Source: Bifidobacterium adolescentis ATCC 15703 (GTDB lineage Bacteria > Actinomycetota > Actinomycetes > Actinomycetales > Bifidobacteriaceae). Taken from it: DNA of 64,000 bases. A model generated the notes under the pieces. That model worked only from the letters and a program-made list of their open reading frames with translations. It was not told where the DNA came from and searched no databases. The stretch covers positions 1,419,946 to 1,483,945 of the forward strand of contig NC_008618.1 of NCBI RefSeq assembly GCF_000010425.1, read 5' to 3'. Below, piece by piece: positions 34,253-50,594 of the stretch; within the stretch, counting starts at the first letter, position 1, and each line of letters opens with the position of its first letter. The translations under genes and the position numbers were made by a program.

Positions 34253-34418
34253 ATCTCAATACACGTATCCCATATGGGATACGACCGGTAGTGAAGGTCC
34301 GGTCGTACACGCTTATCGTATTTCAATCCACACATCCCGTATGGGATGCGACGCACCGCGTCTACGAATTTCCGTGATCGTAGAAATTTCAATCCACGCA
34401 TCCCGTATGGGATGCGAC
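34253..34418 (-). CRISPR. Relic CRISPR array with a second repeat family (3 repeats, 2 spacers)
   Basis: Three 33-nt repeats lie at 34253-34285, 34320-34352 and 34386-34418, separated by spacers of 34 and 33 nt. They share the flanks of the main array (TTTCAATCCAC and the GCGAC end, read on the plus strand), but the hairpin arms are CATCCC/GGGATG instead of CTCTCC/GGAGAG. The first repeat is the most altered (ATCTCAATACAC) yet its arms GTATCCC/GGGATAC still pair. Orientation equals that of the main array, so this is the oldest, trailer end, now cut off by an insertion element. Confidence 0.85.
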
Positions 34419-34647
34419 TTGCCACGATTAAACATACATCCTCCTTTCGTGTTTTGCTTCAATTTTTCTTAAGCAATTTCTGCACTGTTTTTCCGCAGTA
34501 TGGGGCCGCTGGTTTCCATCAGGAACTGCACCATATGACCGCCCAGACGAAAACAGGCACCAGCCCGCCGTGCCTGTATATTCCCGAGACGCAGCCCAAA
34601 AACGAATCCGCCGGCTGCAACCGGCGGCGCTCGGGAAGGAAAGGACG

Positions 34648-35535
34648 ATGGCGATACCGATGCCCAAACAGCAAGATATCAGGAGACTGGACCGTCAGGG
34701 AGTGTCCAGGTCGGAGATCGCGAGGAGGCCGGACGTGGACCGCGCCACGGTCGCGAAATACGCCGACATGGACGACATGACGCCGAAACCGCCCACGGAC
34801 AGGCGCCGCGGCTCCAAGATCGACCCGTACGCGGCGTTGGTCGACGGATGGCTCGAGGCCGACCGCAGGCCGCCACGCAAGCAGCGCCACACCGCCAAAC
34901 GCGTGCACGACAGGCTCCGCGCGGAGACCGAGTACGACGGCGAGTACACGACGACGCCGGAGTACGTGAGACGCTGGCGCGAGGCGAACCGGAGAGGTTC
35001 CGACGGATACGGCGAGCTCGTCTGGGCGCCCGGCGTCGCGCAGATCGATTTCGGCGTGGCGAAGGCCCGCATCGCCGGCGAGCTCGTGGACGACCACTGC
35101 CTGGTCGTCACGTTCCCCCATTCGAACATGCGGTACGTGACGAGCCTGCCCGGGGAGAACGCGGAATGCCTGTGCCACGGGCTGGTCGAGGTGTTCGAGC
35201 ACATCGGCGGAGTCCCGCCAGTGATCGTCATGGACAACGCCACCGGCGCGGGACGCAGGAACGCGAGGGGCGAGGTGACGCCCGCCGCGGTGCTCGACGT
35301 GTTCGACATCAAAAAATCGCTGTCACACAAGGGCAACCCCTACGACAACGCCGTGGTCGAATCGACGAACAGGCCGCTGAAGAAGGAGCTCGTGTACCGG
35401 AACCACTGCACCACGATCGAGCGACTGAGGCATGACCCCGACGACTACGTGTGGTGGTCCGACAACCAGCGGCTCCGCTCCGCCCTCGGATACCGGAGCC
35501 CGAAGGAATTCACCGAACAGGGACTCGTCCTCTAA
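34648..35535 (+). CDS. Chimeric transposase: IS21 IstA N-part fused in frame to IS3 OrfB C-part
   Basis: Residues 1 to about 220 are IstA-like: a helix-turn-helix (GVSRSEIARRPDVDRATVAKY), then the DDE-domain strand GVAQIDFG and IVMDNATGAG. From about residue 220 the sequence switches to the end of an IS3-family transposase: KSLSHKGNPYDNAVVEST, KKELVYRNHCTTIE, RLRSALGYRSPKEF. The IS3 part supplies a DDE glutamate (in VVEST) but from a different enzyme. The open frame across the join is unusual. GGGAAGGAAAGGACG precedes the ATG. Transposition activity is unlikely. Confidence 0.75.
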   Translation: MAIPMPKQQDIRRLDRQGVSRSEIARRPDVDRATVAKYADMDDMTPKPPTDRRRGSKIDPYAALVDGWLEADRRPPRKQRHTAKRVHDRLRAETEYDGEYTTTPEYVRRWREANRRGSDGYGELVWAPGVAQIDFGVAKARIAGELVDDHCLVVTFPHSNMRYVTSLPGENAECLCHGLVEVFEHIGGVPPVIVMDNATGAGRRNARGEVTPAAVLDVFDIKKSLSHKGNPYDNAVVESTNRPLKKELVYRNHCTTIERLRHDPDDYVWWSDNQRLRSALGYRSPKEFTEQGLVL

Positions 35536-35568
35536 GAAACCGTCCAACACGCTGTTGCCAATCCACTC

Positions 35569-36003
35569 GTGCTCTACGAGCCCGTCGGCACCGGCAAGAC
35601 GCATCTCGCGGTCGCGTTGGGCAGGCTCGCGTACATGCGCGCGATACCTGTCAGGTTCTTCACCGCGACCGGGCTGCTTATGATGCTGCGCCGCGCGAAA
35701 CGGGAAGACCGGCTCGACACGGAGCTCCGGCAGATCGCCAGGGCGAGGCTCCTGATCATCGACGAGTTCGGCTACATGCCGATCGACAAGGAGGGCTCCA
35801 GGTTCCTGTTCCAGGTCATATCGGATTCCTACGAGACCCGGAGCATGGCCCATATCATGAACATCGAGTTCTCCGGCTGGGGGCGCGTGCTCGGCGACAA
35901 GAACATGGCCGCCGCGTTGATCGACCGCACCGTGCACCACGGAAGGCTCGTCAGATTCGAGGGAGGCTCCTACCGTAGCGAGCACGCCCTCATGACCAGA
36001 TAG
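35569..36003 (+). pseudogene. IstB ATPase, 5' truncated
   Basis: The frame encodes the last 144 residues of an IS21 IstB helper ATPase: Walker A EPVGTGKTHLAVALG, LLIIDEFGYMPIDKEG (Walker B), and the C-terminal GDKNMAAALIDRTVHHG. The N-terminal domain, about 90 residues in normal IstB, is missing and replaced by the IS3 right end at about 35536-35568. It cannot function as usual. Confidence 0.8.
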
Positions 36004-36145
36004 CTAGGAAGAAAAGGGTGGCGGATTCCGACGTCGCAGTTTCTGTTGGAGACCAGCTGCCTATGCTGCTGAAAAATAGTGCCTATACTGTGGATGCCAA
36101 CTTGCAGAAACACACCAGAGCGCCGCCGCGCACCCGCTCCGGTCG

Positions 36146-39100
36146 ATTTCAATCCATGCTCTCCGTAAGGAGAGCGACCCCTCTACTGGTAAGGAGACTG
36201 ATTATGGTCGATATTTCAATCCACGCTCTCCGTAAGGAAAGCGACCCGACCGCGAGGTAGTCGGATGATTGCATGGCGATATTTCAATCCACGCTCTCCG
36301 TAAGGAGAGCGACCACCGCGCCATGCAGTATTTCAGTACTACCCCGTTATTTCAATCCACACTCTCCGTAAGGAGAGCGACATAGCGAGGCCGTCAGATA
36401 CGAGCTTCCCAAACTCATTTCAATCCACGCTCTCCGTAAGAAGAGCGACACTCCAAAAACCACTGCATACACTGTTACACCTAATTTCAATCCACGCTCT
36501 CCGTAAGGAGAGCGACATGGAAACCCCGCGCAATTCCGATAATTACGATATTTCAATCCACGCTCTCCGTAAGGAGAGTGACTTACCGTGACGGGCACCG
36601 CCACGTACGTCAACCCATTTCAATCCACGATCTCCGTAAGGAGAGCGACACCGGAGAGCGTCGGCAAATGGCGAAACTATTATTATTTCAATCCACGCTC
36701 TCCGTAAGGAGAGCGACAATATCAGAGGCGCATGCCAAGCGCAACTCAGATATTTCAATCCACGCTCTCCGTAAGGAGAGCGACCTCTAGTGTCCTAAGT
36801 TATAGGCGAGACTTGTGATTTCAATCCACGCTCTCCGTAAGGAGAGCGACGATTCTCTATGGTGATACTCATGATTCGTCCTTAATTTCAATCCACGCTC
36901 TCCGTAAGGAGAGCGACATATCCTGCGTGACCAGCTCGTCACGCTGCGGCAGATTTCAATCCACGCTCTCCGTAAGGAGAGCGACTGCCCGTGACGCGAA
37001 TCGCGTAGCCGGTCAAACCATTTCAATCCACGCTCTCCGTAAGGAGAGCGACGCCTGGGCGTGATGGACGTGGGCGACTCGACCGTGATTTCAATCCACG
37101 CTCTCCGTAAGGAGAGCGACGCGTGGAAGCAGCTTTTCGTCAGCTATGGCGCAAATTTCAATCCACGCTCTCCGTAAGGAGAGCGACCGTATCCTCCCTG
37201 ATCGTCCGCGGCCAGGTCGGAATTTCAATCCACGTTCTCCGTAAGGAGAGCGACGGCCACCGTCATTCGGATATGCGGCAGGCTTGGAATTTCAATCCAC
37301 GCTCTCCGTAAGGAGAGCGACCATTGAGAGCGTGGAGTCGCGGGAAACTCACGATATTTCAATCCACGCTCTCCGCAAGGAGAGCGACCTGGCGTCCATT
37401 GACGATGGAACAGTCCGAAGCGATTTCAATCCACGCTCTCCGTAAGGAGAGCGACTTCGGGTTCCGGGGGAGTGTGGCCGGGAAGCACATTTCAATCCAC
37501 GCTCTCCGTAAGGAGAGCGACACGCGACTAAGACTGCCCACCCACCATTAAAGGAATTTCAATCCACGCTCTCCGTAAGGAGAGCGACGTCATCGATCAT
37601 CATGCCGTGGCGAACTTCACCGATTTCAATCCACGCTCTCCGTAAGGAGAGCGACCGGGTTCAGCTGCGCCTTGGTCAGGTCGGCGCTATTTCAATCCAC
37701 GCTCTCCGTAAGGAGAGCGACGTTTCGGGAAATGCAGCCGCACATGACGCAATAAGCAATTTCAATCCACGCTCTCCGTAAGGAGAGCGACGCGTATTGC
37801 GGGCGAATCATGTCGCCATGCTCGGCATTTCAATCCACGCTCTCCGTAAGGAGAGCGACGCAGAGTATTATGGCCCGCTTCGGTGCCTTCGATATTTCAA
37901 TCCACGCTCTCCGTAAGGAGAGCGACCCAGGCACAGGACGGCACCAACCGCACCGTCATGATTTCAATCCACGCTCTCCGTAAGGAGAGCGACCAGGCCG
38001 CCGACCATGTCGGACACCAACTGCATATTTCAATCCACGCTCTCCGTAAGGAGAGCGACGCATGCCGACTGGCAGGGAATGGCTCCGTTCTGATTTCAAT
38101 CCACGCTCTCCGTAAGGAGAGCGACTTGACAACGACGGTATCCTGCGCTGCGGTCTTGACATTTCAATCCACGCTCTCCGTAAGGAGAGCGACATACAGG
38201 CGCGGGAAAGCGCCATAACCGCGTACGAATTTCAATCCACGCTCTCCGTAAGGAGAGCGACCCCGCGTTCTATTGGAACGCCAAAAGTCAAGAGATTTCA
38301 ATCCACGCTCTCCGTAAGGAGAGCGACAAGAGTGTCTGAGAGATTTCCAGAGTGTCATAATTTCAATCCACGCTCTCCGTAAGGAGAGCGACTTCGCATG
38401 TGCTGGGATTCTTCCTCTTCATCCATATTTCAATCCACGCTCTCCGTAAGGAGAGCGACTCGCTTGATGCTTATGGCGTGGCTCAGGCTTGATATTTCAA
38501 TCCACGCTCTCCGTAAGGAGAGCGACTGTCCGCCCCTGCCTCATTGTAGTTGGGGATATAATTTCAATCCACGCTCTCCGTAAGGAGAGCGACGTGCAAT
38601 GAGCGTTGACGTATTCAACGCGCTGAATATTTCAATCCACGCTCTCCGTAAGGAGAGCGACTAGCACGAACTGGGAAGAGGCGGATGCCAGCAAATTTCA
38701 ATCCACGCTCTCCGTAAGGAGAGCGACTCGAATATGAAGAACGCACCTCGTACATCGACATTTCAATCCACGCTCTCCGTAAGGAGAGCGACCGGCAGAC
38801 ACCACCGGCCGCCATGCGCTCCATTGGCATTTTAATCCACGCTCTCCGTAAGGAGAGCGACCTGCTGCGCGAACGTCGGAATGCCGGACACGTTATTTCA
38901 ATCCACGCTCTCCGTAAGGAGAGCGACTTTGGAGCACGGCTGGATCGGAGAGAACCCCATTATTTCAATCCACGCTCTCCGTAAGGAGAGCGACGCCACA
39001 CCGAGCGCAACGGGTCGCTGCTGACCCTATTTCAATCCACGCTCTCCGTAAGGAGAGCGACGTGCGCCTCTTCTGGGAAGAGGTCGTAGACGAAGCCATT

Positions 39101-41890
39101 TCAATCCACGCTCTCCGTAAGGAGAGCGACCAACCAAGTGGCCGAAGCGCTGCTCGGAGCCGGCAAATTTCAATCCACGCTCTCCGTAAGGAGAGCGACC
39201 GTTCCTCGCGGGAATTGTAGAGGCGAGTGTCGGAATTTCAATCCACGCTCTCCGTAAGGAGAGCGACCCTTCCACGATGCGATCACCTCGGGCGTGAAGA
39301 CATTTCAATCCACGCTCTCCGTAAGGAGAGCGACTGGATGTCTGCACGACGTACCTGCACCGGTATAAATTTCAATCCACGCTCTCCGTAAGGAAAGCGA
39401 CCATGCAAGCGCAAGAAAAACTTCGTCAACAGACGATTTCAATCCACGCTCTCCGTAAGGAGAGCGACAAATACGCAAAGTCAAGATGCTGGTGCTGCGA
39501 GAATTTCAATCCACGCTCTCCGTAAGGAGAGCGACCCGCTCCCCACGCATCGGCGTCCATCTTGCGCTTATTTCAATCCACGCTCTCCGTAAGGAGAGCG
39601 ACGGTGGCGCATGAGGTTGTGGTGGCGGCGGGAGATATTTCAATCCACGCTCTCCGTAAGGAGAGCGACTCTGCCAGAAAGTGAATCTGAAAGCTCAATG
39701 GCGATTTCAATCCACGCTCTCCGTAAGGAGAGCGACGCGGCGCTGGTGAACCGTATCGGCGGTACTTATGTATTTCAATCCACGCTCTCCGTAAGGAGAG
39801 CGACGCGGCGCTGGTGAACCGTATCGGCGGTACTTATGTATTTCAATCCACGCTCTCCGTAAGGAGAGCGACTCTCCCTCTACGCCGCAATATTTGCGAT
39901 TGCCGAATTTCAATCCACGCTCTCCGTAAGGAGAGCGACGCGCATTCAAAAACGGCTTGTCCCCAACGGTTAGATTTCAATCCACGCTCTCCGTAAGGAG
40001 AGCGACCACCTGGAAGTAATTGCTGGTGCATTCCGGATTATTTCAATCCACGCTCTCCGTAAGGAGAGCGACCAGGCGCGTGGCTATCGCGCCATTTGCG
40101 AGACATTTCAATCCACGCTCTCCGTAAGGAGAGCGACCCAATAAACAGCGTAAAAATGACGGGACATGGTAATTTCAATCCACGCTCTCCGTAAGGAGAG
40201 CGACCATCCGCCATGATTCAACGCCATCCTTCATCTCATTTCAATCCACGCTCTCCGTAAGGAGAGCGACCAACTTCCAGCAGGAATACGTTCCAAGATA
40301 AGGAATTTCAATCCACGCTCTCTGTAAGGAGAGCGACCAACTTCCAGCAGGAATACGTTCCAAGATAAGGAATTTCAATCCACGCTCTCTGTAAGGAGAG
40401 CGACTCTTGGGGAGGCTGACTGACATGACGCGCAGTAGATTTCAATCCACGCTCTCCGTAAGGAGAGCGACCGACGCTCCTGCGGGTAACGCTCGTAATC
40501 AGGCTATTTCAATCCACGCTCTCCGTAAGGAGAGCGACCGCCACGTCCGACCATCACGCCGACCTCGTCGCGATTTCAATCCACGCTCTCCGTAAGGAGA
40601 GCGACCATCGCCGCGCAGCAGTCGCGCATCGTTGAACTCATTTCAATCCACGCTCTCCGTAAGGAGAGCGACCAACTACAGCCTCCCGCTCAACCTGAGT
40701 GACCTGATTTCAATCCACGCTCTCCGTAAGGAGAGCGACCTGGTATCACCAATTTTCCAACCTTCATGACGGTATTTCAATCCACGCTCTCCGTAAGGAG
40801 AGCGACCGGCCTCGTACGCGACGTGGTCGTCGCCATTGCAAATTTCAATCCACGCTCTCCGTAAGGAGAGCGACCACACGCCACATTCATCAACGCCATC
40901 AAGGGAGAATTTCAATCCACGCTCTCCGTAAGGAGAGCGACCACGGACGGCTGGTATACGGCGGCCGAGGTACGGATTTCAATCCACGCTCTCCGTAAGG
41001 AGAGCGACCTCGCCGACCGGCTCACCGACCTGACCAACCTCGAATTTCAATCCACGCTCTCCGTAAGGAGAGCGACCCTCTTCGGTCAGGCTAAACGCCT
41101 CGTCCAAGGTATTTCAATCCACGCTCTCCGTAAGGAGAGCGACCTTGACTGGTTCGAATTGCATGTGCGCGTATGGTAGATTTCAATCCACGCTCTCCGT
41201 AAGGAGAGCGACCCAAAAGCGTCTGAGAGACTTCCAAGGTGTCATAATTTCAATCCACGCTCTCCGTAAGGAGAGCGACCCCACGGCTCAACACATGGCT
41301 CCGCGACCAATGGGATTTCAATCCACGCTCTCCGTAAGGAGAGCGACCATGTACTCCGCCCATCGTCCCATGGAGTCTCGATTTCAATCCACGCTCTCCG
41401 TAAGGAGAGCGACCGGACTGGCATGATTCGGCTGACGTCACTTATGGAATTTCAATCCACGCTCTCCGTAAGGAGAGCGACCGTCGGTTGGTGCCGCATC
41501 AAGATGCACCTTGTAATTTCAATCCACGCTCTCCGTAAGGAGAGCGACCACCGCACAGCCAACGATGTCGCCAATACGAAAGCATTTCAATCCACGCTCT
41601 CCGTAAGGAGAGCGACCTATCGGATAACTAAGGGATGTAACCGTTTGTACCATTTCAATCCACGCTCTCCGTAAGGAGAGCGACCCTGTACGGTGCTGCC
41701 CCAATACAGATTTTCCTTTTTATTTCAATCCACGCTCTCCGTAAGGAGAGCGACCTTCCAAATCATCGAGACGTTGCGCGATCTCGTGAGATTTCAATCC
41801 ACGCTCTCCGTAAGGAGAGCGACCTGGACGCTCCCCAAGCCGAGGGGGTGGCTTCATATTTCAATCCACGCTCTCCGTAAGGAGAGCGAC
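36146..41890 (-). CRISPR. Type I-C CRISPR array, 86 repeats and 85 spacers
   Basis: I counted 86 copies of a 33-nt repeat from 36146-36178 to 41858-41890, with spacers of 32-37 nt. In the transcribed (minus) direction each repeat starts GTCGCTCTCC, has a perfect CGCTCTCC/GGAGAGCG hairpin and ends GTGGATTGAAAT, the typical type I-C pattern. Transcription starts in the leader near cas2, so 41890 is the newest end. Repeats at the old end carry mutations (copies 1, 2, 4, 5 and 8), as do 17, 19, 41, 49, 63 and 64. Two repeat-spacer units are duplicated: spacers 39737-39771/39805-39839 and 40271-40304/40338-40371. Confidence 0.98.
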
Positions 41891-42282: not shown

Positions 42283-42573
42283 CTATATCATCATCACATC
42301 ATTAACCGGCAAACTCCGTTCATGCCCATAACGCTCAATCCTATCCGCATATCGAGCGCCAAGTTTATAAAAGCGCAGACTGTCCTCATCAATATTGGCA
42401 ATCTTCAACAAATCGTGCACCAACACCAGATAATCGGAAGGACTCACCGAGCATTCGAAAACACTGTTCTGTACACGCTGTCCGTATTTCATGCATGTCT
42501 TCGCCACCAAACGAAGACGACGCTTCCCCTCAGGGGTTTCCGTACTCACATCGTACGCAACCACAACCATCAT
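42283..42573 (-). CDS. cas2: CRISPR-associated endonuclease Cas2
   Basis: A 96-residue Cas2 of the type I-C branch; with Cas1 it forms the spacer integration complex. The first strand MMVVVAYDVSTETPEGKRR carries the conserved Asp8, and RRLRLVAKTCMKYGQRVQNSVFEC gives the ferredoxin-like core. GGAGGTGAAAAACC precedes the ATG. It is the last gene of the cas operon, 67 bp after cas1. Confidence 0.95.
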   Translation of the reverse strand: MMVVVAYDVSTETPEGKRRLRLVAKTCMKYGQRVQNSVFECSVSPSDYLVLVHDLLKIANIDEDSLRFYKLGARYADRIERYGHERSLPVNDVMMI

Positions 42574-42640
42574 GGTTTTTCACCTCCAATAACACATCAC
42601 CACGAATCATCGCATACCGCCACACACAGCTACGCACCTT

Positions 42641-43672
42641 TTACTTCCACATAAATGGCGGGTAATCATCAAGATCACCCCGCAACGATCGAGCTAGCAG
42701 CAGCGCTTGCACATACGGAACCAATCCCCACGAAATTTTTTCTTGCAGGAACGGATGAAGAATCTGATCACTCTTCTTTTTCTGCCACGCCGTAAGCACT
42801 TTCTTCCGCCCGAAATCAGACAGCAGCACCCCGCCATTCTCCCGTATTTCAAAATCCCCCGGCTTAACAGCGCCTGTATTAACCAATGTCAGAACGAAGC
42901 GGTCAGCCAACACCGGGCGAAACTCTTCAACTAGATCCAATGCCAGAGAGGCTCTCCCCGGCCGATCCGTATGCATAAAACCAACATACGGATCCAACCC
43001 CACACCTTGCAAAGCCGCAATGCAATCATTCGTCAATATGGAGTAGCAAAAAGACAATAATGCATTCAGCCTGTCCAGCGGAGGTCTCCTCGACCTACTG
43101 GTGAAAAAGAAATCATCTTTATTCTTCAGAACCAAATCGTCAAAAGCGTAGAAATAATCTTTGGCAGCAAGCCCTTCGACACCCCTCAACTCATCAATCG
43201 TCAAGCTTTTTCGAGCTTTTGACAATGCCGCCGACAATTTGCCGCTCTGCTCGGCAAGTCGGTCGATGTTCACCCGCAAAGCATGATCACGTTTCGTGCG
43301 TTCGAGCACCCATTTCGCATTGTAAAGCTTGCCAACAATGAAAGATTTCGCATAACGCAAAGATTTTTGTTCGTCATCCGCGACTCGAAATTGTTCACGG
43401 CGAAGTAGCACATTACGATTCTCCTCCCCTAACACGGAACAGTAATAATGACCTCTCGGTGAATAGAATGCCATAGAAACGCCCAGTTTGCCGCAGCGCC
43501 CCATAAGAGCAGGCGAAGCACCCTTATACGAGAAACACATGATTCCTTCAATTGACCGTAATGGCACTTTCGCCAAGGTTTGGTCATTCTGATAAATCAC
43601 AACATTATCGTTCTCCAAGGCAAGATAGGCATCTTCTGTCATCACAAACAACGTGTTTAACAGCTGCTTCAT
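42641..43672 (-). CDS. cas1: CRISPR-associated integrase Cas1 (type I-C)
   Basis: The metal-dependent integrase that inserts new spacers at the leader end. The 343 residues equal the usual I-C length. The N-terminal beta domain (NTLFVMTEDAYLALENDNVV) is followed by the helical catalytic part with ELRGVEGLAAKDYF, GFMHTDRPGRASLALDLVEEF (His and Asp/Glu ligands) and LLSDFGRKKVLTAWQ. The ATG at 43672 overlaps the cas4 stop (GTGATG); a GTG at 43675 is an alternative. Confidence 0.95.
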   Translation of the reverse strand: MKQLLNTLFVMTEDAYLALENDNVVIYQNDQTLAKVPLRSIEGIMCFSYKGASPALMGRCGKLGVSMAFYSPRGHYYCSVLGEENRNVLLRREQFRVADDEQKSLRYAKSFIVGKLYNAKWVLERTKRDHALRVNIDRLAEQSGKLSAALSKARKSLTIDELRGVEGLAAKDYFYAFDDLVLKNKDDFFFTSRSRRPPLDRLNALLSFCYSILTNDCIAALQGVGLDPYVGFMHTDRPGRASLALDLVEEFRPVLADRFVLTLVNTGAVKPGDFEIRENGGVLLSDFGRKKVLTAWQKKKSDQILHPFLQEKISWGLVPYVQALLLARSLRGDLDDYPPFMWK

Positions 43673-44349
43673 CACTCCCCGCTTTCCTTGAGCCGTTCTT
43701 CGATATATGCTTTTGCCGATTTCATCTTCCGTAATTCAGGCAGGCACAAATCCCGTAGAGAACATGCCGAACACGATCTGGTCTGTTTCACTTTGGGAGT
43801 CCATCCACGGGAGAAAAGATCATGCATTTGCAAGAAGTCAGCTTCGACCATGTTGCGAAGATCTTCGTCAAATTTTACCCGCTCACGACGTTTTGTCTGC
43901 TGATAGAACAAAGCACCTTCAGGAATATCACACGCGAGCATTTCTTCCAAGCACATCGCTTCCGCGCATAGCTGTAAACGATCAGCATCAATCGTTTTGG
44001 ATTTGCCGTGTTTGTATTCAATCGGATACGGCAACCACAATCCATCTCTTCCGTGAAGCGGAACACCATCATTAGACTTATGGAATTCCACAACATCACA
44101 GGCTCCAGTTATGCCGAGCGCTCGCGAATAGACTCTCAAATCCCGCATGATCAGCATATCGCCGCGAGATTCAGAAGCCGCATAATCGTGGGCGCGTTCA
44201 TGTTCCAGATGCCCCGCTGTGGTCAGATAATTTTCTGACCACAGCTGCTCGATATGAATAAGCGCCCATTGACGCTTGCAGAATGAGAAATGCTGAATAC
44301 CCGAAAGGGCCAGCCAATCTGCTTCTGAATAACCATCTGGCCCTTTCAT
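43672..44349 (-). CDS. cas4: CRISPR-associated exonuclease Cas4 (type I-C)
   Basis: Cas4 trims prespacers and helps select PAM and orientation together with Cas1-Cas2. The 225-residue protein has the four iron-sulfur cysteines: one in SFCKRQW near residue 24 and three in SCSACSLRDLC near the end. RecB-type nuclease residues appear in GACDVVEF, YPIEYKHG and QLCAEAMCLEEM. The ATG at 44349 is chosen because GAGAGG lies 7 nt upstream; an ATG at 44364 lacks a ribosome site. Confidence 0.93.
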   Translation of the reverse strand: MKGPDGYSEADWLALSGIQHFSFCKRQWALIHIEQLWSENYLTTAGHLEHERAHDYAASESRGDMLIMRDLRVYSRALGITGACDVVEFHKSNDGVPLHGRDGLWLPYPIEYKHGKSKTIDADRLQLCAEAMCLEEMLACDIPEGALFYQQTKRRERVKFDEDLRNMVEADFLQMHDLFSRGWTPKVKQTRSCSACSLRDLCLPELRKMKSAKAYIEERLKESGE

Positions 44350-44383
44350 ATAAGCACCTCTCATCTAGGCTTGGACGCTGTAA

Positions 44384-45229
44384 TCAGCGGCCTTCGATTA
44401 CTTCGTAGCGAAGGCCTGGAATGGAAGCGTCATCTACATTCACGGTTCCATCCGCGTCAACGGAAACGGAACGATGAACTTTGGCCGAAGAATACTGGCC
44501 CCCCTTGCAGTTATGTGCAAACCAGACGACATCCAGCACTTCCATCGATCCCGACGGACGTGCCGAACTCTCATCATTCTCGAACAGCGTGACCAGAGCT
44601 TCCTTGATTTTCTCTGCATCCTCTGCGCTGAAACCTGTTCTTTCCGCCAGCTGGGGGCTAATGCTTCCATAAGTTACATATACGGCACGTCCAGAGACAC
44701 GATACTTCATGCCCATGGTGTCGGATGATTTTTTACCGGAATCCGTAGTCTCGCTGTTGACCGATTTAGTGATTTGCACATCGTCAATTGCGATGGGATT
44801 AATGGAGAATGCCGGCTGAATCGAGACCGGTCCGCGTACGCCAATCGAAACCTCATCGGTATCCTTGGCCTTCTTAAAGGCGAAAACCTGACCAAAGGAC
44901 CGCACATCAAGCCAACGCTCGCACACCTTACCGAAGACTACATTCTTCTGCTTCTGCTCATCCTTCGGCAAGGTCTTCAGATATGTATTGAACCTGTCCG
45001 ACAGCGATTTGGCACCATCATCGGAACGATCATCAGACTGCACAAAGACTGATTCTCCTGCATCCTGCAGACGGTTGCGGATCTTCCTCTTCAAGGCGAC
45101 GTCGGAAACCTCACCCAGCCCTTCTGACGTCGTTCTCGGACGATTACCATTCAACGGATCACCATTGGGATTTGCGTTATTCACCGCAAAGGCAATCGCA
45201 AAATCAATCTTATTTTCCAAAGCTGCCAT
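44384..45229 (-). CDS. cas7: Cascade backbone protein Cas7c (Csd2)
   Basis: Cas7c polymerises along the crRNA spacer in the type I-C effector. The 281-residue protein opens with the family signature KIDFAIAFAVNNANPNGDP and contains GNRPRTTSEGLGEVSDVALKR in its first 45 residues, then VRGPVSIQPAFSINPI and WFAHNCKGGQYSSAKVHR. AAGGAG lies 9 nt before the ATG at 45229; a GTG 6 nt upstream is an alternative. It follows cas8c by 53 bp. Confidence 0.95.
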   Translation of the reverse strand: MAALENKIDFAIAFAVNNANPNGDPLNGNRPRTTSEGLGEVSDVALKRKIRNRLQDAGESVFVQSDDRSDDGAKSLSDRFNTYLKTLPKDEQKQKNVVFGKVCERWLDVRSFGQVFAFKKAKDTDEVSIGVRGPVSIQPAFSINPIAIDDVQITKSVNSETTDSGKKSSDTMGMKYRVSGRAVYVTYGSISPQLAERTGFSAEDAEKIKEALVTLFENDESSARPSGSMEVLDVVWFAHNCKGGQYSSAKVHRSVSVDADGTVNVDDASIPGLRYEVIEGR

Positions 45230-45282
45230 AATCACATACTCCTTACTTATAGGCGATGAATCGACTCTGATAATTACAAAAG

Positions 45283-45669
45283 TCAGTTGTTGCTATTATT
45301 TTTTTGAGAAATCTCTTGCGCTTTACGCTTAGATGCTCTCCGCTGACATGAATATCCCAGAAGAAACATTGGCGAAAGCGCCTTATTATCTTCAAAATCC
45401 CCTTCCTTAAACAAAGCCATAACATCGTCGACTTCATTACGGAACCAGGACCCACCGTTTGCCGATTTAAGGTATGGCGTAAGCTGCTTCCACAATGTGC
45501 CCCACGTCGTATAGGGCTTCGCCGTGAAATTGCTCATCAATTTGATTGCATTGGTTGGACGGTCCTTGACTCCCTGCTTACGCAAGACGCTTTCCTCGAA
45601 ATTGTCGGCAAGCGCCAACAACCTTCCATACAGATAATCACGATCATCTCGATTCGGTTCAAGATACAT
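45283..45669 (-). CDS. cas11: Cas11c small subunit, translated from inside cas8c
   Basis: Type I-C effectors need a small Cas11 subunit made from an internal start in the 3' part of cas8c. Here an ATG at 45669, in the cas8c frame, begins MYLEPNRDDRDYLYGRLLAL, and a perfect AGGAGG (45681-45686) lies 11 nt upstream inside the coding sequence. The product would be 128 residues and helical, the size known for Cas11c. This start lies downstream of the cas8c frameshift, so Cas11c should still be made even if full-length Cas8c is not. Confidence 0.7.
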   Translation of the reverse strand: MYLEPNRDDRDYLYGRLLALADNFEESVLRKQGVKDRPTNAIKLMSNFTAKPYTTWGTLWKQLTPYLKSANGGSWFRNEVDDVMALFKEGDFEDNKALSPMFLLGYSCQRRASKRKAQEISQKNNSNN

Positions 45670-47185
45670 GGTTATTACGTCCTCCTGTCTATGCTGTTTT
45701 CTTGTTTCATCGATATAGTGTTTTTTCCATAGGCTGCAAGCGATTTCAAAATCACGACGCCAGACCCTGATATTGTCGTATCCCATAGGCTTGGTGACCT
45801 TATGACATGCGGCATTCAAAATCGACATGGGAAATTGCGCTCCGCCAAACATACATTCAATAAGCCGTTCCTTCACATCTTTCGCGAAGCGTTTATAGCT
45901 CTTGCTGCTCCTATCAGACGTGCCACAAGCACAGTTGATAATGTCAGTGAACGATGGAGCCCCTTCATACTGAACGACATTAACCCGCTCAGCTCCCTCC
46001 ACGATGCTTTTTTTGAAAAATGTAAGAGGCCAAGCTGCATCGACATGCCATTGCAGTATGCGCTTAATGTATTCGTCCTTCTGAAGCTCGCAGTAGAACG
46101 TTACGCCTAAACGCCCCGTTGTAGCAGCATCCAAGATGACGACAACCATCGGATCATTGTGCGTCTTCGAGATCCTCCGCACCCTCATATCCTCTCAGAA
46201 CCCTTGAGAAAATTTTTGCATACTGAACATTTGTCGCATTTAGCGCATCGCTGATGTCGTCATGAAGCGCTTTGGATTCGTCAGCTATTGGCGAGAGGAA
46301 ATCATCAAAATCAAAAGATCCTGACTGCGGATTCAATACGGGCTTTTCCTCAGGTCTTTTTATTGCCCAGACAACGATAGCCTGATTGCCTGTCAACGTT
46401 CCATGATTATTCACCAACCACCGCAAAGTGGAGTTGATTTTCTGAGAGGACGCACTATCAACCAGCAAAGCTTGTTCCTTACTGGAAAAACGTCCACGAA
46501 AAGTAAAATTCGTAGAATCATTAGCAGACAATAGCTTGGCATTGGCATCGGAGCTAACTACCTTTTTAGGGAAATTAGTGGTTGGCGTATAAAGATCCTC
46601 GCCAAAAACATCCTTCCCCAGCCTGTGTTGAGAACGCTGCAGATACGCAATCCAACGATTCCGAATATCAACGTCATTCGATAAATCAGAATCTTCGAGT
46701 CCGATTTGAACCTCGAAACAAACACCGGCTTTATCGTCCTTATCCGTTAGCTCCACGCCATAATGCGCAGCAGCCTCGCTGATGCTATGCTCCGACACAC
46801 ACTTGAAAACAGCTTCAAGCTTGGCGTCATCACCTTTCCATTTTGCAAGCTGCTGCAAGTACATGCTCGTCTTCTCAGGACTGCGCCCACTATCGACGTA
46901 CTGTAACTGATCAAACAGCGGATGCGGTACTGGCTTAATGGTCCTTCCCATCGATTCCTCTGTACAAGGAATGATGATGGTGCTCTTTCTCTTGGCAACA
47001 CCTCTGATACAACCATTCGCGTCCACAAGCACTGTCAGCGAAACCGGAAGAGTCGTATGCCCGTACGGAATCAGCGCCCTCTTCGCAGCGTCAGCGTCAC
47101 CATCTTTCTCTGCACTATGAGGAGTCTGACCAGACGCCCCCTGTATCATTTCGTAGGTAGTAAGCAAATTACCAAACAGACTCAT
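45283..47185 (-). pseudogene. cas8c: Cascade large subunit Cas8c (Csd1), frameshifted
   Basis: Cas8c recognises the PAM and recruits Cas3. The 5' part (46154-47185) encodes 343 residues from MSLFGNLLTTYEMI to FSRVLRGYEGAEDLEDAQ and stops at TGA. The 3' part continues in the next frame with NDPMVVVILDAATTGRLGV, WHVDAAWPL, GYDNIRVWRRDFEIACSLWK and MYLEPNRDDRDYLYGRLLAL up to 45283. Joined, they give a normal length near 633 residues. The shift needs one base around 46160-46172. An ATG (MVVVILDAATT) 4 nt past the TGA could allow reinitiation and two-chain Cas8. A sequencing error is also possible. GGAGGAG precedes the start. Confidence 0.85.
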
Positions 47186-47188
47186 CGT

Positions 47189-47911
47189 TCACTCCTCCTC
47201 TACTGATGTAACGTTCTTGCCTAAGTTGAATTCTTTAACGTTCAAACCATGCCTAACGATGTGCCGATCGAGAAGCGGCGAATCCGGTGATTCGAATCTG
47301 ATAACGCCATCCTTCATAATCGGCATCCAGAAGCGCGAAATCAGATTATGGTCAGGATTCTCATCCGGATACGAGAATCCATGAAACATATATCCCATGT
47401 TCCATTCTCCATAAGAGTCGTAGAACCCTTCTCCCCCTCCGAATTCACACGGTTCGACATAAGCTTGGCATTCCCTAGCACCCAGAAAAATATCGCGACG
47501 GCCTCCTTGACGCACGGACCTCATCGCAATGTTGTGATGTTTGTTTTCATCACGATCATCAGCAAGTTCCTCCCTCAGGTCGTTCCATTCAAAATGCGCA
47601 AGAACTTGATACCTCACATCCTTTAAATATGTGTAGTATGAAAGATCATTTTTAACATTTTTTTTCTTGGGCTGGTACACAATAGTGCGAACACCTCTGC
47701 TCTCCGTCTGAATCTTATTCATGACTCGCACAGCATCAATGACCCACTTAAACGTGGGCTTCCAATAGATGCTCTCCGTAATCCCCTTCAATGCTTGATA
47801 CGTTGGCACCTGATACGAGTACTTCTCTCCACCAACACGCGTGGCGACTTCCGAGAACAATGCGTATCTACCCCAAACTTCATATTCGATTGAATTCCGA
47901 TGCCGTTCCAT
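47189..47911 (-). CDS. cas5: Cas5c, pre-crRNA processing endoribonuclease of type I-C
   Basis: In type I-C, which lacks Cas6, Cas5c cuts each repeat at the base of its hairpin and then stays bound to the 5' handle. The 240-residue protein starts SIEYEVWGRYALFSEVATRVGGEK and has the family stretches YQVPTYQALKGITESIYWKPT and RQGGRRDIFLGARECQAYVEP. AAAGGAG precedes the ATG at 47911; an upstream in-frame start at 47938 lacks a ribosome site. Its stop lies 1 bp before the cas8c ATG region. It is the first gene after the cas3 terminator, so it needs its own promoter. Confidence 0.95.
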   Translation of the reverse strand: MERHRNSIEYEVWGRYALFSEVATRVGGEKYSYQVPTYQALKGITESIYWKPTFKWVIDAVRVMNKIQTESRGVRTIVYQPKKKNVKNDLSYYTYLKDVRYQVLAHFEWNDLREELADDRDENKHHNIAMRSVRQGGRRDIFLGARECQAYVEPCEFGGGEGFYDSYGEWNMGYMFHGFSYPDENPDHNLISRFWMPIMKDGVIRFESPDSPLLDRHIVRHGLNVKEFNLGKNVTSVEEE

Positions 47912-47973
47912 ATAACTCCTTTGTAAACGGTCTTCCAAAGCTATTGGTTAATAGCGTACCACAAAAAATTTCT

Positions 47974-47989
47974 TATGCCATATATAGAA
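47974..47989 (-). promoter_or_regulatory. Putative guide target with TTC PAM upstream of cas5c
   Basis: On the minus strand TTC (47989-47987) is followed by TATATATGGCATA (47986-47974). These 13 bases match the first 13 bases after the repeat-like sequence at 48051-48083, except at position 6. The site is 63-78 bp before the cas5c start, in AT-rich DNA where the operon promoter must lie. TTC is the known PAM of type I-C systems. No perfect -35/-10 pair could be fixed here. Confidence 0.5.
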
Positions 47990-48050
47990 TCTAATAGGCG
48001 TTTCGCGGCATACGCTTTATCGACTATCCTTGTGCCTGTGGGATTCCCAC

Positions 48051-48117
48051 TGTCATCGCGCCAAGAGCGATGTGGATTGAAAATATATTTGGCATATGTG
48101 TTGCCCCCCCCCCCAAA
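48051..48117 (+). ncRNA. Putative crRNA-like regulatory RNA (degenerate repeat plus guide), CreR/CreA-like
   Basis: A lone repeat-like sequence lies antisense to the cas operon. CATCGC/GCGATG (48054-48059 and 48067-48072) form a 6-bp stem with a 7-nt loop, and TGGATTGAAA (48073-48082) equals the 3' handle of the array repeats; GTC also opens it. The bases from 48084 (TATATTTGGCATATG) act as a spacer with a partial, PAM-flanked match upstream of cas5c. A -10-like TATCCT (48025-48030) and a GTGGGA-T-TCCCAC palindrome (48038-48050) precede it. Cas5c could process it, and a partly matching guide would bind without cutting. Expression is unproven. Confidence 0.5.
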
Positions 48118-48165
48118 AAAAAAACTACGGCTCTCTCGCATACTCCTTGGAGCTTGCGAGAGAGC
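48115..48165 (-). terminator. Terminator after cas3, next to an 11-bp G tract
   Basis: On the minus strand, 12 bp after the cas3 stop, GCTCTCTCGCA and TGCGAGAGAGC (48130-48165) form an 11-bp stem capped by CTCC/GGAG, then GTAG and T10 (48115-48124). It is followed by G11 (48104-48114). It should end cas3 transcripts and separate cas3 from the cas5c operon. The paired homopolymers could vary in length. Confidence 0.8.
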
Positions 48166-48176
48166 ACTCATCCTTC

Positions 48177-50594
48177 CTACATCAGCAGGAGAGGCATCTC
48201 CGCCTCCCGTACTACGCCGTACTTGTCGTTGTAGTATTCCTCATTCAGCAAGAAAACTCCAAAATCCTCATTTGCTAACGAGATTGCATGCTTCCTGGCC
48301 AAACCACGATAGTCATCATCGAACAGGGAAACCGTATATTCCTGCAACCGCCTTAGCACTGAGATTTTCTCGGGTAATTCTCCCCTGTGGAGCATATCAA
48401 GTAACTCAGTCGCCTGACCATACGGGACCACAACATTGTGCGTGACATCCGGAATTACATGGAAGTTATCGCTAACCGTCTGAAAAGCCTGAGCAAAGCA
48501 CAAACCGTACTTTCCTCCCGTAGTATTCGTGAATTGAGATCGATCACATTCGTTGAAGGACAACAGATCATAAGCAGTCGTCGCTCCCTCCGCCCTTCCC
48601 CGAATTGGGCAATCCGTATAGCCTCCTTTACCATTACCGTCCTTCTTACGGAGAAGCATGTCATAGTACTGTTCCAGAATATTCGAAGACAGCAAATCCT
48701 TTCCTGGGTAGTTCTCCATAATCTGTAAAGTGAGCTGCTTACCCATTGCGATATCCGGCAGATACCTTTCCATGCTGTCTTCAGCTTTCAATGGATAGAC
48801 ATACACATTCTTTGGTTCTACCGATTCACCATTCCTATTGCAGCGCCCAGCGGCCTGCATAATACTGTCCAGACCAGCCATCGCCCTGACCACGCAAGCA
48901 AACGAAATGTCAACACCTGCCTCAATAAGCTGTGTGCTCACACAAATCACAGGTTTCGGATTGCCTGGATCAAGCAGCGCACCGATTCTGTTCAGACAAT
49001 CCGTTCTATGCCTTCCACACATGGCAGTACTGAGATGAATCAGCTCAAACTCATGATTCACATCAAGTCGTTCCAAGCATTGGAAAATCTCACGCGCTTC
49101 CTTTTTCAGGTTGACGATTGCCAAGCAATTGCCGTTCTCCCGCGCCTGCTGATAAATAATCTGCCCTAGTTCATCGCAGCTTTTATTTTCAGTTGAAGCA
49201 ACGATTCTTGTACGTCGAAGCTTGTCTTCATAGCTTTCCGTTTCAGCAATAAGATCAGGCTTTTCCGAAAGGAGCAGATTCTCTCGTTTGGTTTTTTCAA
49301 GTAACGGCTGCGTCGCAGAGCACAAAAGAATCGTTGAATTGGTAATCTTCGATAGGAAGCTGACGATCTCATTGAACAGATTGATTGTGTTCATCGGCAA
49401 CGACTGTATTTCATCAAAAATGATGACACTGTCGGCCATATTATGGAATTTCCGGAGTTTGGTTCCGCGAGCAGACATGACAGTCTCAAGGAATTCCACC
49501 ATAGTGGTAACAATTATCGGATTGTCCCAACGCTCTGCCGCCAACTTGCGCTGATGCTCCCCGGCATCCTCAAACTCACTCGACGCATTATCCGCTACAT
49601 CAGCGGAACGTTGCATACCTGCAGTGGAGTAATGCTCCAATAGAACATCGCTATCGGCGCTCAGACCAAGTACATCTCGGAAAGTCTTTGCCGTCTGAGT
49701 TGTGATAGACAAATATGGAATCACGTAAATGATCCGGTGCTTTCCTGTCTTCAGCGCATGATGCAACGCAAAATTTAGCGACGCCAACGTTTTACCGCCG
49801 CCAGTCGGAATCGACAAACGATAAATCCCGGTTTCCCGCGCCCCCGCCAAACAACACTGTTCATTAATCTGATGTCTTATCCTGTTTATTTCCGAACTCG
49901 AATCAAAAGATCTCATGCTTTTATCGAGTCGACTAATCAGATTCTGCCAATCAACCGCATTAGGCCGATACTGTTTTCGGGTCTCGAAACAAGCAGCATC
50001 CGTCCTATCCGCATCCACCAGTCGCGAATAAATCAGTTTAACGAGCAAACCTAGATAGAAGTATATGCTATCTTTCGACAGCCTCAGCGATTTAATTTTC
50101 TTCAGGAAACAAGCGATATCTTCCGCTGAACCTCGGAAATTCGATTGCAGATCGAGCGCCAAACCGTTAAGCCCCCGCTTGATTTCTTGATACGCATACT
50201 TCTCGTTGCTTTTGTCCGACTCCGTGAACCCAAGAAGAAAAGCTCTATTCCCGGACTCGTCAATGCAATCAGGAAGACCTCCGTGATGTTTAGAAATGGC
50301 AAGCTCAAGAATTTCCTTTGCTATCTCTTCAATTTCCCCTTTCGACTCGAAAAAATCATTGACGACAAACGCCCCTTGACGGGCATGCTGCACATCTCCC
50401 CTATGCCCATCATCCGATAACAGATATGTTTGGAACTGCTGAGCAACCTTCCCGACATCATGCAAGACGGCTGCCGTACGTGAAATATCAGCGAATTCAT
50501 CCTCGAAACCACTAGCCAATCTTCCTGTACCATGAAGATGGTCATACAAAGTCTGAGTATTGCCTTCCTCATCTTTACGAGCTAATAGAACCAT
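48177..50594 (-). CDS. cas3: CRISPR-associated nuclease-helicase Cas3 (type I-C)
   Basis: Cas3 is recruited by Cas8c to target DNA, nicks it and degrades it processively. The 805-residue protein has an N-terminal HD nuclease (VLHDVGK with His45-Asp46, DVQHARQ near 70, KHHGG near 104) and an SF2 helicase with PTGGGKT at 263-269, DEIQ at 394-397 and CSAT at 425-428, then VCVSTQLIEAGVDISF (motif V region) and AAGRCNRNGE (motif VI). All key residues are present. AAAGGAG precedes the ATG. It has its own terminator, so it forms a separate unit from the other cas genes. Confidence 0.95.
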   Translation of the reverse strand: MVLLARKDEEGNTQTLYDHLHGTGRLASGFEDEFADISRTAAVLHDVGKVAQQFQTYLLSDDGHRGDVQHARQGAFVVNDFFESKGEIEEIAKEILELAISKHHGGLPDCIDESGNRAFLLGFTESDKSNEKYAYQEIKRGLNGLALDLQSNFRGSAEDIACFLKKIKSLRLSKDSIYFYLGLLVKLIYSRLVDADRTDAACFETRKQYRPNAVDWQNLISRLDKSMRSFDSSSEINRIRHQINEQCCLAGARETGIYRLSIPTGGGKTLASLNFALHHALKTGKHRIIYVIPYLSITTQTAKTFRDVLGLSADSDVLLEHYSTAGMQRSADVADNASSEFEDAGEHQRKLAAERWDNPIIVTTMVEFLETVMSARGTKLRKFHNMADSVIIFDEIQSLPMNTINLFNEIVSFLSKITNSTILLCSATQPLLEKTKRENLLLSEKPDLIAETESYEDKLRRTRIVASTENKSCDELGQIIYQQARENGNCLAIVNLKKEAREIFQCLERLDVNHEFELIHLSTAMCGRHRTDCLNRIGALLDPGNPKPVICVSTQLIEAGVDISFACVVRAMAGLDSIMQAAGRCNRNGESVEPKNVYVYPLKAEDSMERYLPDIAMGKQLTLQIMENYPGKDLLSSNILEQYYDMLLRKKDGNGKGGYTDCPIRGRAEGATTAYDLLSFNECDRSQFTNTTGGKYGLCFAQAFQTVSDNFHVIPDVTHNVVVPYGQATELLDMLHRGELPEKISVLRRLQEYTVSLFDDDYRGLARKHAISLANEDFGVFLLNEEYYNDKYGVVREAEMPLLLM

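Follow-up and report, generated by a model that had tools for sequence, protein, structure and literature searches.

A probable creR gene in the type I-C cas locus of Bifidobacterium adolescentis, with covarying guides and targets in related loci

The stretch of DNA analysed here (the window, 64,000 nucleotides of the Bifidobacterium adolescentis ATCC 15703 chromosome) very probably carries a creR gene, that is, the gene of a cas-regulating RNA belonging to its type I-C CRISPR-Cas system. Three observations carry this reading. An ectopic repeat with the cognate stem and handle lies within the cas locus, the guide that follows it shows a limited, PAM-flanked seed complementarity to the predicted cas promoter region, and the pairing is conserved by covariation in relatives, among which we found 21 distinct guide-target pairs.

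A lone repeat within the cas locus

The genome consists of a single contig of 2,089,645 bp. Its type I-C locus is encoded on the minus strand in the order cas3, an intergenic gap, cas5c, cas8c, cas7c, cas4, cas1, cas2 and the CRISPR array. The cas3 gene (48177..50594, minus strand; TIGR01587 and TIGR01596) lies upstream of the element and is separated from cas5c by a gap of 265 bp (48176-47912), in which inspection of the open reading frames revealed no evident toxin gene. The first gene of the proposed regulated operon is cas5c (47189..47911, minus strand; TIGR01876, E 1e-73), starting with ATG at 47911 and equipped with the ribosome-binding site AGGAG. On the same strand it is followed by cas8c (45283..47185), by cas7c (44384..45235; TIGR02589) and by cas4, cas1c and cas2 (42283..44364; TIGR00372, TIGR03640 and TIGR01573). 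The array (34321..41859, on the strand of the cas genes) holds 87 copies of the repeat handle. An insertion sequence at 34340-36150, carrying a two-gene transposase of IS21-like type (ORFs 34570-35535 and 35569-36003), interrupts the array, and two array repeats lie beyond it.

The full I-C gene set is present in this strain, but with a frame-broken cas8c, which is split into two overlapping ORFs (47185-46154 and 46188-45283). TIGR01863 matches both halves and the frameshift falls at about residue 338. In the related locus L055, Cas8c is a single ORF of 625 aa which aligns without a gap across the break. Such breaks occurred in only 3 of 102 loci, namely in the window strain, L025 and L176, and in none of the other 99; in L025 (Bifidobacterium sp. 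ESL0682) the gene is broken at about the same residue as in the window strain. If the frameshift is real, the effector may be inactive and the circuit described below may be impaired in this strain. Alternatively, it may be a sequencing error.

The first-pass annotation of the window had placed a lone degenerate repeat with a 6-bp stem and a handle on the plus strand of the gap, and direct reading confirmed it to the base. The repeat, psi-R, occupies 48051..48083 on the plus strand and reads TGTCATCGCGCCAAGAGCGATGTGGATTGAAAA. Its stem is formed by CATCGC (48054-48059) and GCGATG (48067-48072), and it retains the intact handle TGGATTGAAA at 48073-48082 (plus strand); the 11-nt 5' handle of psi-R is TGGATTGAAAA (48073-48083). 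The same annotation had described the repeat as unlike those of the array, of which it counted 86. The count has to be raised to the 87 handle copies given above and the dissimilarity stands: when the two are aligned in an ungapped register, psi-R agrees with the array repeat in 10 of the last 11 bases and in only 6 of the first 22. Across the whole genome (2.09 Mb) we found 92 copies of the handle, made up of the 87 in the array, psi-R and four others. None of these four has a stem of at least 5 bp, and psi-R is thus the only lone repeat of the genome. Downstream of psi-R we saw no second repeat that would make it a mini-array; the next hairpin lacks a handle.

The guide and the cas5c promoter region

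The bases after psi-R read TATATTTGGCATATGTGTTGCC. We assigned 48084..48118 (plus strand) to the guide (psi-S) of the proposed CreR, its 3' end being guessed from the usual I-C spacer length. The guide seed TATATTTGGCATA (48084-48096, plus strand) matches the target TATATATGGCATA (47974..47986, minus strand) at guide positions 1-5 and 7-13. The agreement at 12 of 13 positions, with position 6 (48089) as the single mismatch, the location of the target after TTC and the end of the similarity after position 13 had all been claimed before, and each of them held when we read the sequence directly. The trinucleotide at 47987..47989 (minus strand), TTC, has been reported as the PAM of I-C systems in Bifidobacterium (PMC5626976, PMC7284854). 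The target lies about 100 nt from psi-R, and the cas5c start follows it after about 75 nt. A homopolymer tract, C11A10 (48104-48124), belongs both to the cas3 terminator and to the 3' portion of the guide; in the relative G005 this site reads CCCTCCCAA, and the tract is possibly hypermutable.

By consensus match only, we predicted a cas5c promoter at 47953..47981 (minus strand). Its -35 box ATGGCA (47981-47976) lies inside the seed target and is separated by a 17-bp spacer from the -10 box TACGCT (47958-47953). A creR promoter was predicted at 48002..48030 (plus strand), again as a consensus match only, about 20 nt before psi-R, with the boxes TTCGCG (48002-48007) and TATCCT (-10, 48025-48030). 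Downstream of the guide there is a hairpin (48129..48165) with an 11-bp outer stem. On the minus strand it is followed by T10 and so reads as the cas3 terminator; it is probably the common terminator of the cas3 and creR transcripts.

Recurrence in other type I-C loci

For comparison we collected Cas5c loci from the genus Bifidobacterium, from named genomes, from the family of one Eisenbergiella genome and from the order of one Paenibacillus genome. Up to 18 kb around each locus was taken and oriented, giving a sample of 111 loci; distant actinobacterial Cas5 matches were too divergent and were left out of the comparison. In each locus we searched for a stem-bearing handle followed by a guide that matches a nearby TTC-flanked site, ignoring every sixth position and tolerating two mismatches in the handle. 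Clean matches with runs of 12-18 were obtained in 20 of the 111 loci, and the handle was a perfect GGATTGAAA in every one of them despite the tolerance. A relaxed scan, in which the seed could contain one mismatch or the handle could vary and in which occasional chance runs of 13-15 occur, added L058, L059, L062, L064 and L068. The array repeat of L064 is itself the variant GATCGAAA, and its lone repeat likewise reads TCGAAA. In total the element was found in 25 of 111 loci. Two further loci, L175 and L040, are tentative and were not counted, and a match in L177 was set aside, its target overlapping a tandem duplication that adjoins its own repeat.

The element is present in 16 of the 19 intact Bifidobacterium I-C loci and also occurs in genomes of the Paenibacillus and Eisenbergiella groups. 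At the settings of the scan it was not found in the Bifidobacterium loci L022, L060 and L071, nor in most I-C loci of Clostridia and Bacilli. G005 (L333 / L065) has lost most of its I-C cas genes and keeps, beside unrelated genes, an island of a few hundred bp with the creR repeat, the guide, the target promoter and the tail of cas3.

In most cases the first gene starts 64-101 nt beyond the target, which overlaps or adjoins the hexamer that most resembles a -35 box, as predicted by consensus. Promoters called at the targets by consensus alone include TTGACT-17-TATATT in L041, TTGACA-17-TATGAT in L157 and TTGCTT-17-TATAGT in L067. Where cas3 and cas5c overlap or abut (L023, L024, L025, L061, L062, L063, L041 and L157), the element lies upstream of cas3. 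Being placed before cas5c, or before cas3 when the two genes abut, it follows the promoter of the operon. Hairpins comparable to that of the window are found in most related loci, and in most elements the guide is closely followed by a strong hairpin.

A chance match is ruled out by the guide shuffles and the array-spacer controls. Of 200,000 shuffled window guides only 7 achieved a run as long as 13, all 39 TTC sites within ~0.5 kb being considered. When the guides of all 111 loci were shuffled in 20 rounds, the longest run was 10, obtained three times. Array spacers were also tried as guides on promoter regions of this kind, and in 4,232 tests in 83 loci they paired at no more than 9 positions. 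When positions were left unweighted and no PAM was demanded, the best site for most guides was still the TTC-flanked target.

Covariation of guide and target

The related elements follow the same rules as the one in the window. In all cases the guide starts at the nucleotide after TGGATTGAAAN, i.e. 11 nt into the handle, and the target is preceded by TTC. Across the 21 distinct pairs, positions 1-5 and 7-11 are nearly always paired, position 12 is free, and complementarity dwindles between positions 13 and 18, after which matches are random. A mismatch at position 6 occurs in 20 of the 21 pairs, slightly above the 79% expected from base composition (P about 0.05). As positions 6, 12 and 18 were disregarded in the scan, the tolerance at these positions is partly built in.

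Covariation of guide and target with the PAM kept had been named in the first-pass annotation as something to look for in other bifidobacterial I-C loci, and this is what we saw. Between sister loci overall we counted seven compensatory changes of guide and target: at positions 4, 5 and 8 in L039/L197, at positions 2, 4 and 5 in L023/L024 and at position 11 in L062/L063. Within positions 1-11 there were two single-sided breaks, one at position 8 in L062 and one at position 10 in L058, the latter a seed break that L059 carries as well. Other changes between sister loci were confined to positions 6, 12, 13 and 15. The loss of the seed match from relatives that keep the repeat would have spoken against a guide; the relatives keep both, with different sequences. 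That sister species maintain the pairing of guide and promoter with different letters is strong comparative evidence that the element works.

These changes also bear on the alternative that fares best, in which the element is what remains of an old, decayed array whose spacer was self-targeting and is no longer functional; we nevertheless regard it as improbable. It would account for the degeneracy of the repeat, for the broken cas8c of the window strain and for the retention of the element in G005 after the loss of most cas genes there. However, a remnant would hardly keep its handle, PAM and seed pairing across 25 loci while the rest drifts, acquire seven compensatory changes or have the upstream half of its repeat rewritten with the stem preserved.

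It is more doubtful still that the element is, instead of a cas regulator, a CreA-type antitoxin that represses a toxin or a phage-derived Racr. Both of these use lone degenerate repeats, and a prophage of Bifidobacterium pseudocatenulatum is known to encode an I-C Racr (PMC10651486). A CreA represses an adjacent toxin gene, but in nearly every case the target found here lies upstream of cas5c or cas3, and the 265-bp gap of the window holds no evident toxin ORF, although it might still encode a small toxic RNA. A Racr is encoded by a virus or plasmid, but the present element belongs to the chromosomal cas locus across a genus, and selection acts on its guide seed, a constraint that would be superfluous in a pure Racr decoy. 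Pattern scans of viral contigs for two of the guides gave 36 and 54 matches, about the chance expectation for a 16-base pattern in a collection of that size, and no match in either scan combined a repeat stem with an exact handle. Least credible is a protein operator, in which guide and target would be inverted-repeat half-sites for a transcription factor and the likeness to a repeat incidental: in the window the two do lie on opposite strands and form an inverted repeat, a possibility the first-pass annotation had also raised, but we reject it because of orientation, PAM and covariation, since in L066, L194 and L206 guide and target run in the same direction, the matched sequence varies between species with the pairing kept, and the match begins exactly 11 nt into the CRISPR handle, after TTC, and skips position 6.

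Proposed circuit

In type I-C, a subtype without Cas6 and among the commonest type I subtypes, Cas5c makes the crRNAs. For a creR gene of this subtype we infer the following course from transcription to repression. A short plus-strand RNA would begin just upstream of psi-R and end at the hairpin common with cas3. Judging from I-C biochemistry and from the preserved stem and handle, Cas5c would recognise the stem, cut the RNA and leave the handle UGGAUUGAAAA, and Cas5c, Cas8c and Cas7c would assemble on the processed RNA. This complex would read TTC and bind the cas5c promoter region, to which guide positions 1-5 and 7-13 are complementary. An R-loop over the predicted -35 box would then block RNA polymerase, while the short pairing would spare the DNA from cleavage by Cas3. 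The outcome would be less transcription of cas5c-cas8c-cas7c-cas4-cas1-cas2, relieved once crRNAs, or anti-CRISPRs that block DNA binding, draw the effector away. By extrapolation from the CreRs of other subtypes (PMC13131331, PMC12737573), the circuit would in this way sense the supply of crRNA or an attack by anti-CRISPRs.

Taking the survey as a whole, we lean slightly towards the wider view that autorepression guided by RNA belongs to type I-C systems as a regular component: a Cas5c-processed, single-repeat CreR would be present in most Bifidobacterium I-C loci and scattered in Bacilli and Clostridia, tracking the operon promoter, with seed and target repeatedly changing together and position 6 almost always mismatched. 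If the proposed circuit is true, CreR-type autoregulation extends to I-C and to human gut Bifidobacterium. AcrIC5, which blocks I-C DNA binding, should then derepress the cas genes, no derepression is expected of AcrIC1 and AcrIC3, which do not interfere with DNA binding, and editing with endogenous I-C systems would have to account for CreR. The 21 natural guide-promoter pairs amount to a ready mutational experiment on the I-C pairing needed for repression without cutting.

Relation to known repeat-derived regulators

Standalone-repeat regulatory elements have reportedly been predicted across type I and V-A by Shmakov et al. 2023; these are likewise solitary units resembling repeats, located close to cas genes and partly matching cas promoters, and that survey could already list I-C cases. 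In P. aeruginosa a promoter can be repressed by I-C effectors with crRNAs, an effect that some AcrIC proteins lift and that AcrIC1 and AcrIC3 do not (PMC7913775). RacrIC1 (PMC10651486) is, like the present element, a solitary I-C repeat mimic in Bifidobacterium, but it is a prophage-encoded inhibitor and not a putative guide to a cas promoter. A homologue of AcrIC5 adjoins RacrIC1 in a Bifidobacterium prophage.

The pairing rules are those of the haloarchaeal I-B CreA. Mutations of CreA showed a need for positions 1-5 and 7-11 and not for 6 and 12, its PAM is TTC, and in H. hispanica it consists of one degenerate repeat and a terminator (PMC8501985). The I-C element has the same paired positions, the same free positions 6 and 12, the same TTC and the same order of psi-R and terminator. 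CreA targets a toxin, whereas the I-C element targets the cas promoter and no toxin is evident.

The closest counterparts are the CreRs, which autorepress I-B, I-E and V-A systems via partial promoter complementarity (PMC13131331) and are relieved by crRNA competition or anti-CRISPRs (PMC12737573). The subtypes listed in the sources consulted as having demonstrated CreRs are these three and do not include I-C. The I-C element shares with them an ectopic repeat-derived guide beside the cas genes and a limited complementarity to the cas promoter. It differs in its subtype, in the presumed processing by Cas5c instead of Cas6, in having a single repeat with a 3' end at the terminator and in being predicted from sequence. 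CreR is a known kind of regulator, to which the putative I-C example adds unusually strong natural covariation evidence.
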